Assembly: GCA_902775895.1 (NCBI GenBank)
Contig: CACYNO010000010.1
Location: 1-49,990 of the forward strand
Length of the DNA stretch: 49,990 nucleotides
Direction: 5' to 3'
Source of the DNA: an uncultured Lachnospiraceae bacterium
GTDB taxonomy: Bacteria > Bacillota > Clostridia > Lachnospirales > Lachnospiraceae
The position numbers and the translations under genes were made by a program. The notes under the pieces are model-generated. The model was not told the origin of the DNA, did no database searches, and was given only the letters and a program-made list of their open reading frames with translations. Below, one piece after another: positions 20,418 to 26,160 of this stretch (position 1 is its first letter; each line of letters starts with the position of its first letter).

Positions 20418-20671
20418 TTCGGTTTAAAAAGCAGCTCTGTGTCTGTCTTTCCAAACATTAGAAGACAGTCCGAAGAATACAGAGCGATAATCCGGTATAC
20501 GAATGAAAAGCATTCTGTTTGAAAAACTGCGACAGGAATCGTTCCTGTCGCAGTTTTGAGTTTATGCTTTTTATTCGTGCTTATACCGGATTATCGGTCT
20601 GGATATTCTTCAGGGCTGTATTCTACGGTTTGGAAAGGCAGATCACAGAGTTGCCCTTATTAAACCGTGAA
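20418..20671. repeat. Long-hairpin repeat, copy A
   Basis: Two imperfect inverted arms of about 100 bases (20418-20512 and 20566-20671) share blocks such as CTTTCCAAAC, GAAGAAT and GATAATCCGGTAT. The tip holds a second, perfect hairpin, AAAACTGCGACAGGA with its complement (20523-20556). Copies B and C near 25.0 and 26.05 kb share the outer arms but not the tip. It fills most of the 356-bp gap between the methyltransferase and the convergent SPFH gene. No protein is credibly encoded. Confidence 0.85.
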
Positions 20672-20681
20672 CATTCCCCCC

Positions 20682-22058
20682 TTACTGCCTCGGCTTTCCG
20701 CAATTAGAACAGAAATTACCTGAATTCTCCGTACCGCACTCACATGTCCACACACCAGTCGGTGCCGGCTTGGGCTGACCGCAGTTTGAGCAGAAGTTGC
20801 CTGAATTCTCAGCGCCACATGAGCATGTCCATACGCCTGCTCCCGGAGCCACCGGAGGAGGTACTGCTGCCCCGCCTCCCTGTGGCTGACCCTCGGGTCC
20901 GCCCTGTGGTGGAGGAGTCTGTCCGTCAGGTCCCGCGGGCGCTCCCTCCGGAGGAGGAGTCTGATTAGGCTTATTGGCATTCATGGCTGCCTGGTTTGCC
21001 TGCATCTGTGCAGATGTGGCATCAATGTCAGTCTGCTGTCCCGTACCGGTGGCACCTGCCATGTTAAACATATTGGTTGCCTGCTGCCCGCCGACGTTCT
21101 GCGCCATGCCCATGCCTGCAAATCCCATAAACGCACCGTTTTCGTTGTTTGCAGCATCCTGCATAGCCTGAGCCTGGGAACCAACAAGGGTTGCCGCAGC
21201 CATCTGCGGATCTCTGTTGATGGCATTTCTCTGAGCATCCTTGATTATCTTCTCATCCTCTTCACGAAGTGTGACTGAAGATACACCGAAGGTCTCGATC
21301 TCAATACCCCTGTGCTCTTTCCACTCAGCGGTAAGCTCCTCGTCAAGTGCCTGTGCAAGTTCCTTGGTATGTGCCGGAACCTCGCTGTATCTGATACCCA
21401 TTGCGGAGATCTTAGCCAGTGCCGGCTGAAGCGCCGTAAGGAGCTCCGTCTTTAACTGGGAATCGATGGACTCTCGTCTGTACTCATCAGACACGTTTGC
21501 ACATACATTGGTATAGAAAAGAATGGGATCAATGATCCTGAAGGAGTACTCTCCGTGACATTTCAGTCCGGCATCAAGATCCAGATTGATATTCCTGTCC
21601 ACAACACGGAACGGAACGGGATTTGTCGTACCGTATTTATTTCCCAGGATTTCTTTTGTGTTTACATAATAAACTCTCTGGTCATGGGCAGTATCACCAC
21701 CGAAGGTGAAACGTCTTCCGATCTTTTTGAAGGTTTCCTTTATACCCTGTCCGAGACTTCCGCAAAAAATTGACGGCTCCGTAGAAGCATCATAGGTAAA
21801 ATCGCCCGGCTCGGCGCAGATCTCAGCCACCTTACCCTGGTCGACCAGTATCACGCACTGTCCGTCATTTACTGAAATAACAGATCCGGTAGTGATGATA
21901 TTCTCCTCGCCCCTTGTATTGGATGAACGCTTTGATGTACGTTTCTGACCCTTTGCCACAAGCACGTCCGTGCTGAGCGATTCGCAGTAGAAGAACTCTT
22001 TCCACTGATCTGCCAAAACTCCGCCAACAGAGCCTGCTAAAGCTTTAATCAATCCCAT
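20682..22058 (-). CDS. SPFH-domain protein with two C-terminal zinc ribbons (YdjI-like)
   Basis: This 458-residue protein has an SPFH/Band-7-like N-terminal region (about 40-290, including YVNTKEILGNKYGTTNP and VSSVTLREEDEKIIKDAQR), a low-complexity Met/Gln/Asn and then Pro/Gly-rich linker (about 320-405), and two near-identical zinc ribbons, WTCSCGAENSGNFCSNCG and WTCECGTENSGNFCSNCG. It resembles the virion-core-protein-like family that includes B. subtilis YdjI, which acts with a PspA homologue in membrane stress; that role here is inference. No PspA homologue is adjacent. Confidence 0.85.
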   Translation of the reverse strand: MGLIKALAGSVGGVLADQWKEFFYCESLSTDVLVAKGQKRTSKRSSNTRGEENIITTGSVISVNDGQCVILVDQGKVAEICAEPGDFTYDASTEPSIFCGSLGQGIKETFKKIGRRFTFGGDTAHDQRVYYVNTKEILGNKYGTTNPVPFRVVDRNINLDLDAGLKCHGEYSFRIIDPILFYTNVCANVSDEYRRESIDSQLKTELLTALQPALAKISAMGIRYSEVPAHTKELAQALDEELTAEWKEHRGIEIETFGVSSVTLREEDEKIIKDAQRNAINRDPQMAAATLVGSQAQAMQDAANNENGAFMGFAGMGMAQNVGGQQATNMFNMAGATGTGQQTDIDATSAQMQANQAAMNANKPNQTPPPEGAPAGPDGQTPPPQGGPEGQPQGGGAAVPPPVAPGAGVWTCSCGAENSGNFCSNCGQPKPAPTGVWTCECGTENSGNFCSNCGKPRQ

Positions 22059-22150
22059 GTCTTATTCCTCCTGACTTTTAATAAAACACATACCTTAAAT
22101 CTGGTTTACCGTTACATTTTAACACGATTTTAACCAAACGTATCAACTTT

Positions 22151-23203
22151 TTATTTTTTTAATGAAGAATGATCGCCTCTGACCATAGCTATCTTATATC
22201 CCGTACTGTCAATCCTTTTGGAAAGAGCCTCCAGACATTCCGCAGCTTCTTCCCCGGTGCTTATCTTTCCGTCATAGAGCATATATTTTTTCCTTACGCT
22301 TACCGGCGAGAGGTTCGGCATGACCACGTTTGCACCCGCCAGTATCCCCAGTTCACGCCCTGTCGGCACAAGGGTTCCCAAAGCCGTGGTGGCGGGAAGG
22401 AGCACCTCCGGCAGCATCAGCCGCACAATGGACAAAAGATGCAGGGTATCCTCGAGACTTCCTGCAGGCTCGTTTTTAAAAGGCGTCTCATTATGGGGAA
22501 TAAAAGGCCCCATCCCCACCATATGCGGCCTGAATTCACTGATAAAGATCAGGTCACTCACCAGATTGTCCACGGTCTGGCCCGGGGAGCCTATCATCAT
22601 CCCGCACCCCACCTGAAAACCTATACTTTTAAGATCATTCAGGCATCTGAGCCTGGTCTCTATACTCATCTTTCCGTTATGTAAAAACGAATAATGCTCA
22701 GGGGTAACGGTCTCATGACGCAAAAGGAATCTGTCAGCCCCGGCATCAAAATATCTCTGATATGTCTCCCTGTCCCGCTCACCTACCGAAAGAGTAACCG
22801 CACTGTCGGGGAAAGCCTCTTTTATCCCGGATATGATCTCACACATATACTCGTCGGTAAAATGCATATCCTCACCGCCCTGCATCACAAATGTGCGAAA
22901 TCCCAGTTCATGACCAAGTGCGGCACATTCCATGATCTCCTCCCGGGTCAGACGGTATCTTAAGGCATTTTTATTTGACGCCCTGATCCCGCAGTAAGTG
23001 CAGTCGTTCCTGCAGTAGTTGGTAAACTCTATCAGTCCGCGGACGTACACGTCTTTCCCGTAGATATCCTCCCTGACTTTTCGTGCTGTTTCATAAAGGA
23101 ATTCCTCATCCTCTTTTGTCAGGGAAGTCAGGAGCTGTTTCAAATCCTCTTTATCAGGTATTCTGTTTTCTTTTAATTCTGTTATCAGTTCTTTGTTGTT
23201 CAT
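22151..23203 (-). CDS. hydE: [FeFe] hydrogenase H-cluster maturase HydE
   Basis: HydE (350 residues) is a radical-SAM enzyme of [FeFe] hydrogenase H-cluster assembly. The 4Fe-4S/SAM motif is C64-RND-C68-TY-C71 (CX3CX2C) within FTNYCRNDCTYCGIRAS. Further family marks are FVMQGGED, GVERDRETYQ-like SVGERDRETYQ, and the C-terminal VVMPNLSPVSVRKKYMLYDGK. BioB is a relative, but the PNLSP/RKKY region and length favour HydE. HydF and HydG are not in the window. The gene has no ribosome site and its promoter ends 10 bases before the ATG. Confidence 0.92.
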   Translation of the reverse strand: MNNKELITELKENRIPDKEDLKQLLTSLTKEDEEFLYETARKVREDIYGKDVYVRGLIEFTNYCRNDCTYCGIRASNKNALRYRLTREEIMECAALGHELGFRTFVMQGGEDMHFTDEYMCEIISGIKEAFPDSAVTLSVGERDRETYQRYFDAGADRFLLRHETVTPEHYSFLHNGKMSIETRLRCLNDLKSIGFQVGCGMMIGSPGQTVDNLVSDLIFISEFRPHMVGMGPFIPHNETPFKNEPAGSLEDTLHLLSIVRLMLPEVLLPATTALGTLVPTGRELGILAGANVVMPNLSPVSVRKKYMLYDGKISTGEEAAECLEALSKRIDSTGYKIAMVRGDHSSLKK

Positions 23204-23213
23204 GATAAAAACG

Positions 23214-23242
23214 ATGATACCTTATATCCGGATTTGTTTCAA
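23214..23242 (-). promoter_or_regulatory. hydE promoter with a very short leader
   Basis: On the minus strand TTGAAA (23237-23242) and TATCAT (23214-23219) are 17 bases apart. Only ten bases separate the -10 box from the hydE ATG, leaving a predicted leader of about 2-4 bases. Confidence 0.6.
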
Positions 23243-23343
23243 GAAAATCTGGTACCATAAAAAAATAATGTTTTGGTGCTTCTAATAGGACCCATAAAAT
23301 TGTATTATATCGGTGGAGATTTCATTATTATACATTACTACTT

Positions 23344-23378
23344 AAGAAAACAGCGCCGTTCATCGGCGCTGTTTTCTT
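23344..23378 (-). terminator. Terminator overlapping the end of the FAD dehydrogenase gene
   Basis: A perfect 15-bp stem, AAGAAAACAGCGCCG with its complement, closes a 5-base loop (23359-23363). The last sense codons (K-Q-R-R) and part of the stop codon lie inside it. T-rich sequence follows on either strand, so it could work in both directions. Confidence 0.85.
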
Positions 23379-24772
23379 ATTTGATCCGCTACATACAGCC
23401 CCATAGCCGAGCTCATGGACAGCCCCCTTGTCCATGATGAGGAATCACCTATGGCAAAAAGGCCTTTGATATTCGTCTCGCAGCGCTCATCTATAAGGAC
23501 TTTGTTTGAATAAAATTTCACTTCTATACCGTACAAAAGCGTAGCATCATCTGCAAGCCCCGGGGCAACTTTGTCCATAGCCTCTATCATCTCGATAATG
23601 GCATCCATGATGCGCTTTGGTATGACCAGTGTCAGGTCTCCGGGAGCGGCGTCGGTGCATGTTGGCGCAGCTCCGGCTTCCGCAAGGCGCTCCGGAGTAC
23701 TGCGTCTGTGTTTTTTAATATCACCATAAGACTGAACAAGAACCGTATCTCCCGCAAGCATATTCGCGGCTCTGGCAAAAATGGCACCATACTCTAAAGG
23801 CTCCTTAAAAGGCTCGGTAAAATTCTTGGACACAAGAAGTGCAAAATTCGTATAATCCGTTTTCAGATCTGCCCCCTTGTATGCATGACCGTTCACCGTA
23901 GTCACAGTAACTCCTCCCGGCAGGTGATAATTTTCCAAAGCCACTTCACCCGACGGGTTCTGACAAAAGGTTCTTACCTTATCATTTGACTCTTTCGTAT
24001 AGTAGATAAGCTTTGACTCATACATGGCTTCGTTTAACTCCTGCATTACTGAGTCCGGACACTCTACCCGAACTCCCAGATCCACTGTCCCCGGAGTCGT
24101 CTTGATCGCGTGCTTTTCGCATACGTTCTTAAACCACTTTGCTCCTTCACGTCCCGCGCCTATTATTACCGTATCTGAGTAAAATTCTTCTCCGTCTTTA
24201 CTTATGACACCTTTAACCTTTTCTCCATTGTCCGTGAGTATATCTTCAACCGCAGTCTTAAACAGGATTTTTACCCCCTTCTCCAAAAGGTATGCCTCAA
24301 GCTTGGAATATATCTCATAGCTTGCCTCCGTCCCCAGATGTCTTATGGGGCTTTCCACAAGCTTCATCCCTGCCGCCTCGGCTTTCTCTCTGATCCTTTT
24401 CACTGCCTCCGGGTTATCCGTACCGTAAAGACGGGTATCCGCTCCGAACTTCAGGTAGATATCATCCATCTTCCCGATAAGCTCTTTTACTAAAGGCTCC
24501 CCTATCAGCTTATCCAGATTTCCCCCTGTTTCTGAGGATGCAAGTGTCAGTTTCCCGTCTGAAAAGGCTCCCGCCCCGGCAAAGCCCGTGGTTATATTGC
24601 AGGGCTTGCAATGGACGCACACTCCAGTCTTTCTCTTGGGACAAATCCTGTGCGCCATATCATTCCCCTTTTCAAGCATAAGGATATTCAGGGAAGGATT
24701 TTTATTGATAAGCTCATACGCGCAGAATATCCCGCTTGGACCCGCGCCCACGATTATGACATCATACTCCAT
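23360..24772 (-). CDS. FAD-dependent dehydrogenase (COG2509-like)
   Basis: This 470-residue flavoprotein begins with a dinucleotide-binding motif, VIIVGAGPSGIF (residues 5-16), followed by a cysteine-rich loop R-x-C-P-K-R-K-T-G-x-C-x-x-C-x-P-C (near 42-60) and GFAGAGAFSDGKL, which mark the COG2509 'uncharacterised FAD-dependent dehydrogenase' family. The C-terminal FAIGDSSSWTRGLSMSSAMG is a second FAD contact. The substrate is not known. The start at MEYDVIIV, with AAAGGA upstream, is chosen; the longer frame has an unlikely N-terminus that runs toward hairpin repeat B. Confidence 0.85.
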   Translation of the reverse strand: MEYDVIIVGAGPSGIFCAYELINKNPSLNILMLEKGNDMAHRICPKRKTGVCVHCKPCNITTGFAGAGAFSDGKLTLASSETGGNLDKLIGEPLVKELIGKMDDIYLKFGADTRLYGTDNPEAVKRIREKAEAAGMKLVESPIRHLGTEASYEIYSKLEAYLLEKGVKILFKTAVEDILTDNGEKVKGVISKDGEEFYSDTVIIGAGREGAKWFKNVCEKHAIKTTPGTVDLGVRVECPDSVMQELNEAMYESKLIYYTKESNDKVRTFCQNPSGEVALENYHLPGGVTVTTVNGHAYKGADLKTDYTNFALLVSKNFTEPFKEPLEYGAIFARAANMLAGDTVLVQSYGDIKKHRRSTPERLAEAGAAPTCTDAAPGDLTLVIPKRIMDAIIEMIEAMDKVAPGLADDATLLYGIEVKFYSNKVLIDERCETNIKGLFAIGDSSSWTRGLSMSSAMGLYVADQIRKQRR

Positions 24773-24893
24773 ACTATTTTCCTTTCGGTTTCGCTTTTCC
24801 GACTGCTTATTACACTTAATTATATTATCCAATCCCCCGGTGCATTTCAAGATTTTTATCGAGATAGACATTTTGCCCTGTGTCAACAAAATA

Positions 24894-25083
24894 ACAGCTC
24901 CATGTCTGTTTTTCCGAACATTAGAAGGCGGTCCAAAGAATTAAGAACGGGTAAATCGTTTACGGACAAAAAGCATTGTTGCGAAGCAACTTTTATGCTT
25001 TTTGTCCGTGTTCAAACGATTTAGTCGTTCTTTAAATTCTTTAGGGCCGGATTCTACAGTTTGGAAAAACAGATCATGGAGCT
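24894..25083. repeat. Long-hairpin repeat, copy B
   Basis: Arms 24896-24975 and 24995-25083 pair over about 80 bases; shared family blocks are TTTTTCC[GA]AAC, ACATTAGAA against CTGTAGAAT, and AAAGAATT. The distal arm part (ACGGACAAAAAGCAT) differs from copies A and C but still pairs with its partner. The tip is a small GTTGC-GAA-GCAAC hairpin. It occupies most of the 376-bp gap between the FAD dehydrogenase and rpmA. Confidence 0.88.
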
Positions 25084-25108
25084 TTAATTTAAAAAGGTCA
25101 AAACACAT

Positions 25109-25134
25109 AAAAAAATCGGCGCCTATGCACCGAT
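25109..25134 (-). terminator. Terminator of rplU-rpmA
   Basis: On the minus strand ATCGGTGC-ATAG-GCGCCGAT is followed by a run of T residues. It begins 15 bases past the rpmA stop. Confidence 0.9.
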
Positions 25135-25148
25135 CTTCAACATATTGA

Positions 25149-25433
25149 TCAAGCTTCCTTCGGATAAACCGAAACCTGCTTTTTATCTTTACCTCTTCTC
25201 TCAAAACGAACAGTTCCGTCCACGAGAGCAAAAAGTGTATCATCTTTTCCGCGTCCTACGTTCACTCCGGGTAAGATCCTTGTTCCGCGCTGTCTGTAGA
25301 GAATGTTGCCGGCAAGTACAAACTGTCCGTCAGCTCTCTTAGCACCAAGTCTCTTAGATTCTGAGTCACGTCCGTTCTTTGTGGAACCTACACCCTTTTT
25401 ATGAGCGAATAACTGAAGGTTAAAAAATAACAT
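25149..25433 (-). CDS. rpmA: 50S ribosomal protein L27, with cleavable N-terminal extension
   Basis: L27 (94 residues) sits at the peptidyl-transferase centre, where its mature N-terminus contacts tRNA. It starts [20 protein letters not shown]: the nine residues before AHKKG are the Firmicutes-type extension removed by the cysteine protease Prp. In many Firmicutes prp lies between rplU and rpmA; here only 31 bp separate the two genes, so prp must be elsewhere. [23 protein letters not shown] is the L27 signature. Confidence 0.98.
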
Positions 25434-25464
25434 GGTCTTCTCCTCCTTTACATCTTTCTAAAAA

Positions 25465-25776
25465 TTAACCGTTGATCTTCTCAATCTTAACCTTTGTATA
25501 TGGCTGTCTGTGACCGTTCTTCTTGTGATAGCCCTTCTTAGCCTTATACTTGTAAACGATAATTTTCTTTGCGCGTCCTTCTTTAACAACTGTAGCTGAA
25601 ACGCTTGCTCCGCTTACAGTAGGTGTTCCCACCTTGCTCGCTTTGCCGTCGTTAACGAAAAGAACCTGATCAAATGTAACGGAATCCCCTTCATTTAATC
25701 CTAACTTTTCTACAAAAATCTCATCGCCTTCAGCGACTGTGTACTGTTTTCCACCTGTTGCAATAATAGCGTACAT
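25465..25776 (-). CDS. rplU: 50S ribosomal protein L21
   Basis: L21 (103 residues) binds 23S rRNA. It starts [18 protein letters not shown] and ends with [20 protein letters not shown], the family C-terminal signature. GGAGG precedes the chosen ATG; an upstream in-frame start would translate the leader RNA and is rejected. It is followed by rpmA. Expression is probably feedback-controlled through the structured leader upstream. Confidence 0.98.
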
Positions 25777-25858
25777 AATATCCTCCTGACTATTTATTCG
25801 CCGGTTTTGGGGAGAGCCGTTATGGCTCTGCTTCATGCCCGTACCCGAGCGGCATGCC
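25777..25858 (-). ncRNA. Ribosomal protein L21 leader
   Basis: The leader between the rplU promoter and its ribosome site can fold into two hairpins on the minus strand: CATGCC against GGCATG around a GCTCGGGTAC loop region, and AGAGCC-ATAAC-GGCTCT. This matches in layout the L21 leader of Firmicutes as I recall it. A covariance search would be needed to confirm membership. Confidence 0.65.
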
Positions 25859-25863
25859 CTAAT

Positions 25864-25892
25864 ATATTAAAGTAAAAACATAGAGTTGTCAA
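25864..25892 (-). promoter_or_regulatory. rplU-rpmA promoter
   Basis: On the minus strand TTGACA (25887-25892) and TAATAT (25864-25869) are 17 bases apart, a near-consensus promoter. Transcription would start near 25857, at the head of the L21 leader. Confidence 0.85.
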
Positions 25893-25938
25893 TATTTTTT
25901 TATACAGATACAAGGCAGTTTCCGGTGTCGGGTTAATA

Positions 25939-26160
25939 AACAGCTTCGTGTTTGCCTTTCCGAACATTAGAAAACGGTCCGAAGAATTCAGAATGACTTA
26001 ATCGTTTACAAAGGTCAAGCAACGCTGCATGATAACTTTCTGTAATAAAAACTTTGATGCAGCTTCATTGCTTGACCTTTGTGTTTAAACGATTCAGTCG
26101 TTCTGTAAATTCTTCAGGGCCGGATTCTACAGTTTGGAAAGGTAAATCACGGAAGCTGTA
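25939..26160. repeat. Long-hairpin repeat, copy C
   Basis: Arms 25940-26022 and 26068-26159 pair over about 85-90 bases. Blocks shared with A and B are CTTTCCGAAC, ACATTAGAA against CTGTAGAAT, and GAAGAATT. The distal arm CAAAGGTCAAGCAA pairs with its own partner but is unlike the other copies. The tip (26023-26067) has a GCTGCAT / ATGCAGC stem. It lies between the rplU promoter and the Nudix promoter. Confidence 0.88.

Follow-up and report, generated by a model that had tools for sequence, protein, structure and literature searches.

A family of long-hairpin elements with a conserved fold at gene ends in three genomes of one Lachnospiraceae genus, possibly inserting into hairpin loops

Small structured repeats are common in bacteria, and for most of them movement and the retention of the fold are an open question. 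REP and BIME sequences are palindromes near gene ends that form a strand-specific hairpin with a conserved mismatch, bound by the RAYT transposase. REPs measure 20-40 bp (PMC3733652), and the accounts cited here describe larger elements in other bacteria: ERIC (RU-1) of enterobacteria is a 127-bp intergenic sequence that forms one long hairpin and is thought to affect mRNA stability (PMC2229807, PMC2267715), YPAL (RU-2) of Yersinia is a 168-bp mobile intergenic repeat whose transcript would be highly paired, whose targets span or adjoin a dyad symmetry and for which filled and empty sites are known (PMC2229807), and BOX, RUP and SPRITE of pneumococcus are small structured repeats found inserted into one another, SPRITE being terminator-like (PMC3049150, PMC10969869). 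In this study, three long hairpins were analysed in a stretch of 49,990 nucleotides (the window, from contig CACYNO010000010.1 of an uncultured Lachnospiraceae bacterium), namely copy A (20431..20653), copy B (24894..25084) and copy C (25940..26157), all on the + strand. They belong to a family found in three genomes of one genus, and the reading that we favour, at a probability of about 0.45, is that its members are small non-autonomous mobile hairpin elements that often insert into the loops of hairpins at gene ends.

Among the described systems YPAL comes closest on account of the dyad symmetry that its targets span or adjoin, and it is likewise small, mobile, intergenic and highly paired. 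The two were compared by description and not by sequence, and on that basis YPAL differs in duplicating its target over 3-26 bp, while no duplication was seen here at the threshold used, and in the nested towers of the present family (one unit standing in the tip of another), which are not mentioned in the sections of the YPAL account cited (PMC2229807). ERIC shares the single long hairpin dispersed between genes, whereas the present element is longer and has recurrent internal loops and nested towers, and ERIC has TA ends and target duplications as described (PMC2229807). For BOX, RUP and SPRITE, the cited accounts deal with clusters and insertions, not with ordered tip-in-tip nesting (PMC3049150, PMC10969869). 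The likeness to REP/BIME lies in gene-end palindromes with a strand-specific hairpin and a conserved mismatch, but the present elements are longer, and the genomes that carry them have no match to the Y1_Tnp domain. The best reading is a new family like the ERIC, YPAL and BOX mobile structured repeats, placed beside those families and not in them; a literature search returned no report of it.

The genome containing the window (G000; 1.65 Mb, 14 contigs) yielded 53 blastn matches, with matches on both strands counted. An alignment of 27 full copies was used to derive a consensus fold and then a covariance model, of the kind that the preliminary description of this locus had proposed building from the three copies. 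With both-strand matches merged, the model recovered 39 distinct loci at E<=1e-6, plus 2 weaker ones; the count may be a lower bound, 150 of 770 candidates having been scored. What had been described as a three-copy family is thus far larger in its own genome. The loci are about 95-227 bp long, full-length elements about 190-227 bp, and their distribution is uneven: contig C2, with 14% of the genome, holds 15 of the 39, and the 613-kb contig C1 holds 5. The family occurs in three of 11 genomes of the genus, the other two being G006, a rumen metagenome-assembled genome (RUG10926) with 10 loci, and G001, with 2 model loci and further towers at contig ends. The model had no match in the remaining eight (150 candidates scored per genome) or in 199 other genomes (11 candidates scored per genome), and a pattern covering one tip class, run against a collection of named genomes, found RUG10926 alone, at 2 loci. 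Tips fall into distinct classes, each common to several copies, and the tips of A, B and C, earlier called unrelated, each resemble those of other copies in the genome. Four half copies in G000 (C2:146898, C2:154324, C5:41180 and C11:22901, given as contig and position) keep the right arm, the left arm being missing or nearly so.

The fold of these elements is retained by compensatory change while the sequence varies. Across the 27 aligned copies 96.1% of 1889 cells are paired, compared with 85.1% after shuffling and 34-48% when partners are slid. Double changes occur in 42 of 70 pairs (21.4 shuffled, 7-14 slid) and in 236 cells (70.1 shuffled), in line with the covariation proposed earlier, these statistics being uncorrected for the relatedness of the copies. 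Many copies in G006 have outer arms unlike the G000 arms, each paired with itself. When 49 copies (39 from G000 and 10 from G006) were folded one by one, 36 showed a 2x2 internal loop, AU/CA or CU/CA; on the 3' side, 38 had a 4-nt bulge and 43 a single bulged A. The copies missing a loop or bulge include short and truncated ones and folds with a shifted or altered loop. In the copy at G000 C1:21152-21378, four extra bases face the recurrent 4-nt bulge, which is therefore closed by pairing. The existence of the family and the keeping of its fold are held with high confidence.

To see which strand folds, wobble pairs were counted in a strand-symmetric alignment of the left arm against the reversed right arm. 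In the element cores G.U exceeds A.C by 155 to 27 cells in G000 and 46 to 10 in G006, counts of a kind that common ancestry inflates; by alignment column the ratio is 26:2 (p 3e-6). Stem columns thus prefer G.U over A.C on one strand, which indicates that this strand folds. The simplest reading of the bias is an RNA of the element's + strand, with single-stranded DNA of the + strand as the alternative. A strand-specific fold and recurrent internal loops would also be expected if the copies were domesticated trans-acting structured RNAs, each an independent small RNA gene, and the same idea draws support from one orthologous copy: the core of C6:19948 is 94% identical to that at G006 C48:6127, with a common left flank, while at the other loci compared the matching DNA alongside has 69-85% identity. 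However, a common internal promoter is not supported. A consensus promoter scan gave 15 sites in 6 kb, against 8.6 +/- 3.2 in shuffles, and within the elements only weak promoter-like matches (9/12) at differing places in A and C and none on the + strand of B. With tips in common classes and patchy presence in the genus as further points against it, a set of independent small RNA genes is highly improbable.

The evidence for mobility is good. Two pairs of G000 copies are 97% (C2:56616 and C2:154416) and 95% identical, and their flanks do not match: these score 1.0 and 2.0 for the first pair and 8.5 and 3.0 for the second, where the mean over all pairs is about 3 and the orthologous pair scores 37 and 9.5. 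Copies C2:192825 and C2:193315 lie within about 0.8 kb that separates two convergent genes; in both G006 and G001 these genes abut. Where G000 has C1:21152, the site is occupied in G006 by a plain long hairpin whose sequence is unrelated and in G001 by a tower divided between contigs C10 and C18; where it has C3:68246, a 17-bp terminator-like hairpin stands in G006 and, in G001, a tower divided between C77 and C58.

A complete two-unit tower lies on contig C14 of G001, with 253 pairs over 620 nt and a folding energy of -321.6 kcal/mol. Its parts run in the order left arm 1, left arm 2, apex, right arm 2, right arm 1, so that the outer unit carries the inner one at the apex of its own tip, and TTA flanks the inner unit on either side in this one case. 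The C10 and C18 ends, like those of C77 and C58, resemble the halves of towers. A fold-back artefact of assembly is unlikely, since the arms are imperfect (those of C10 and C18 are 84% identical over about 600 columns) and contain fixed loops and wobbles. In G000, C2:154416 stands immediately beside the right half of another copy, which starts within its tip. A short hairpin type, ACCCTCTTTTCCGGACACCCGGGGAAGAGGGT, is found repeatedly in the outer arms of the towers of G001 (C10, C18, C77 and C58 ends), and a variant of it lies on contig C1 of G006 downstream of rpmA, beside a reading frame resembling the start of a transposase. Loss of SbcCD as the explanation for the survival of such palindromes is not supported: SbcD (SbcC was not checked) was found in all 11 genomes of the genus, and its absence therefore cannot explain it.

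The preliminary description had offered two alternatives, a selected RNA structure or DNA hairpin and a non-autonomous element retaining its ends, and there is now partial support for the pair, with evidence on either half. Covariation and the bias towards G.U fit selection for folding as a single strand, and near-identical copies without matching flanks, the element-free site, the plain-hairpin sites and the nesting fit mobility.

Insertion into hairpin loops is suggested by the DNA next to the elements. The 60-nt flanks of the 49 copies were compared with 2352 pairs of swapped flanks, and a strong locus-specific inverted repeat was found around 20 copies (16 in G000, 4 in G006) as against 11 of the swapped pairs; it is centred on the element within 3 nt in 17 of the 20. 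The pairing energy of the flanks averages -23.5 kcal/mol in 30 G000 copies and -13.4 kcal/mol when flanks are swapped (0 of 20000 permutations); copy C beats all 29 swaps and A all but one, and B does worse than most. Palindromes of the type GGGACGG..CCGTCCC surround copies C2:193315 and C7:34850 and stand without an element at four places (C2:147037-147068, C2:211700-211732, C8:57981-58026 and C9:34881-34906). The first of these directly adjoins the apex of the half copy C2:146898, and the palindrome may be a separate mobile repeat. Six simple element-free stems were found on contig C2, one of which (C2:95810) has 18 nt, with one mismatch, in common with a flank of C2:102949, a weak match (E 0.041).

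The same flanks bear on a purely mutational origin, in which self-correction at the DNA level keeps the arms complementary and extends them outward by template switching or conversion in replication, covariation and flank repeats being by-products. This would suit the locus-specific nature of the flank repeats, and also the locus C3:85270, for which G006 has its own copy on contig C47 with arms that have diverged beyond recognition and still pair. A loose count of wobbles in the flanks likewise shows no strand bias (38:42 in G000, 10:8 in G006), whereas a strict count gives 16:5 (p 0.027). Such a process should, however, remove mismatches and wobbles, and both the recurrence of the 2x2 loop, the 4-nt bulge and the bulged A and the keeping of G.U over A.C speak against it; it also leaves the dispersal of the family unexplained, and we consider it distinctly unlikely.

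An ordinary miniature inverted-repeat transposable element (MITE), moved by a DDE transposase acting on inverted-repeat ends, has somewhat more in its favour and is still unlikely. Here covariation would reflect a few master-copy subfamilies and the hairpin would have no role of its own. Like the bacterial MITEs ERIC, RUP, Correia and YPAL, the elements are short, non-coding, dispersed and multi-copy, with inverted-repeat ends and a strand that folds into a long stem, and distinct tip classes, near-identical pairs and patchy presence in the genus agree with such an origin. Against it stand the strand-biased wobble pairs, the fixed loops, the individual outer arms of the G006 copies and the lack of a direct target duplication in any of the 49 copies at the sensitivity used; the nested unit in the G001 tower does have TTA on either side. 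As in structured RNAs, covariation lies above controls and is strand-biased, with the reservation about relatedness already made.

Mobilisation of the RAYT/IS200 kind is also unlikely. PF01797 (Y1_Tnp) was unmatched in G000, G001 and G006, drafts that are 86-95% complete, and full elements of 190-227 bp exceed the size of REPs, which carry a GTAG-type tag. This domain is present in four of the 11 genomes of the genus, and four of the eight non-carriers lack it too, so that the lack of it does not distinguish the carriers. A crude motif scan of contig C2 revealed nothing convincing by way of a reverse transcriptase or tyrosine recombinase near the copies. The same contig holds an open reading frame of 8479 codons (C2:155652-181091), which could perhaps encode a giant surface protein. 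A phage, plasmid or viral origin was considered and rejected, no match being found in viral contigs, phages or plasmids with the patterns and query used. Rfam gave no gathering-level match over the elements, the sole match in the window being a lysine riboswitch (RF00168, 8471-8647, - strand, 111.9 bits); at a relaxed threshold most matches over the elements were to models of microRNA precursors and scored well below the cut-offs of these models, as a long hairpin would be expected to do. Within the reach of these searches the earlier view, that the hairpins match no named family, is upheld.

The position of the family at gene ends is held with high confidence. With every reading frame of 110 aa or more counted as a gene, a setting could be assigned to 48 of the 49 copies: 25 lie between convergent, 22 between tandem and one between divergent genes. 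The p value for the excess of convergent over divergent settings (8e-7) is approximate, given this way of calling genes and because two pairs of copies occupy one intergenic space each.

Several observations weigh against insertion into pre-existing hairpins and against a settled role for the fold. Strong flanking inverted repeats are lacking in 29 of the 49 copies, including A, B and C, and are weak in the most recent pair (97% identical). Direct target duplications number 0 of 49 at the threshold used (7 of 2352 in swapped flanks), a test to which duplications of a few bases are undetectable. The plain G006 hairpins at the C1:21152 and C3:68246 sites are unrelated in sequence to the G000 flanks, and there is no hairpin where the genes abut in G006 and G001; a pre-existing hairpin is thus not demonstrated. 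Only one complete tower lies on a single contig. Among changes private to a single copy the ratio of G.U to A.C is 14:6, which is not significant (p 0.12), and copies between tandem genes are sense in 7 cases and antisense in 15, giving no consistent tie to the neighbouring mRNA. Copy B stands 27 nt beyond a terminator-like hairpin (25111-25138) downstream of rpmA, beside this hairpin and not in its loop. This placement of B and the absence of all three window copies from the 20 strong flank repeats set the confidence in our favoured reading at the level given, and targeting of loops in particular has a less than even chance.

In the window, the three segments are present as first described, and each folds as a long hairpin. 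With short flanks their folding energies are -150.5 (A), -109.3 (B) and -124.6 kcal/mol (C), z being about -17.6 and none of 200 dinucleotide shuffles equally stable in each case. They can be aligned over their length, pairing in A and C reaching somewhat beyond the alignable limits, and alignment and consensus fold bear out the covarying arms quoted for them. No gene-like reading frame is common to the three. The mismatch said to be common to them is a 2x2 internal loop in all, AU/CA in B (24920..24921 and 25057..25058) and C (25966..25967 and 26130..26131), but AU/CG in A (20457..20458 and 20626..20627), most copies having CA on the 3' side. Copy A has its bulged A at 20612..20612, in the right arm, with counterparts at 25043..25043 in B and 26116..26116 in C. 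Copy B also has the 4-nt bulge, GUUC at 25010..25013 on the 3' side, which the single-sequence fold shifts by one base to UUCA. Copy A, with convergent genes on either side, belongs to a tip class with a terminator-like apex, a hairpin at 20523..20557 with a perfect stem of 16 bp and A and T tracts. Copy B is antisense to the tandem genes on either side, and copy C, the only divergent placement in the family, lies between rplU and a Nudix-like gene, gene names being read from the sequence. Gene order or contig ends differ at the loci of A, B and C in the closest relatives, which yielded no orthologous site free of the element for any of the three.

If the elements are mobile and favour hairpin loops, an element would often insert at the apex of a hairpin already at a gene end, and both half-stems would stay paired around the insert, so that the composite closes as one hairpin. 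Such closure would let a terminator keep working and would allow the stacking of copies into towers. A stem of 80-100 bp with fixed loops would be present in read-through transcripts; this stem probably acts on 3' ends, with termination, protection or RNase III processing as putative routes, and the fixed loops may be contacts of a mobilising or processing factor. A bolder proposal, which we regard as doubtful, is that the element targets the loop of another hairpin and that its own one-strand fold, formed by RNA or by single-stranded DNA and marked by fixed internal loops, serves as the signal to move, amounting to hairpin-to-hairpin transposition without a Y1 enzyme.

Strand-resolved covariation, orthologous sites that are element-free, filled or occupied by towers in three genomes, and nesting make loop-targeted insertion directly testable. 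Several G001 contigs end inside hairpins, and the family may therefore explain broken assemblies. Palindromes with arms of several hundred bp occur in genomes encoding SbcD; if loops of other hairpins are indeed the target, tip-in-tip stacking would turn gene-end hairpins into palindromes with arms of up to about 580 bp that persist in SbcD-encoding cells.

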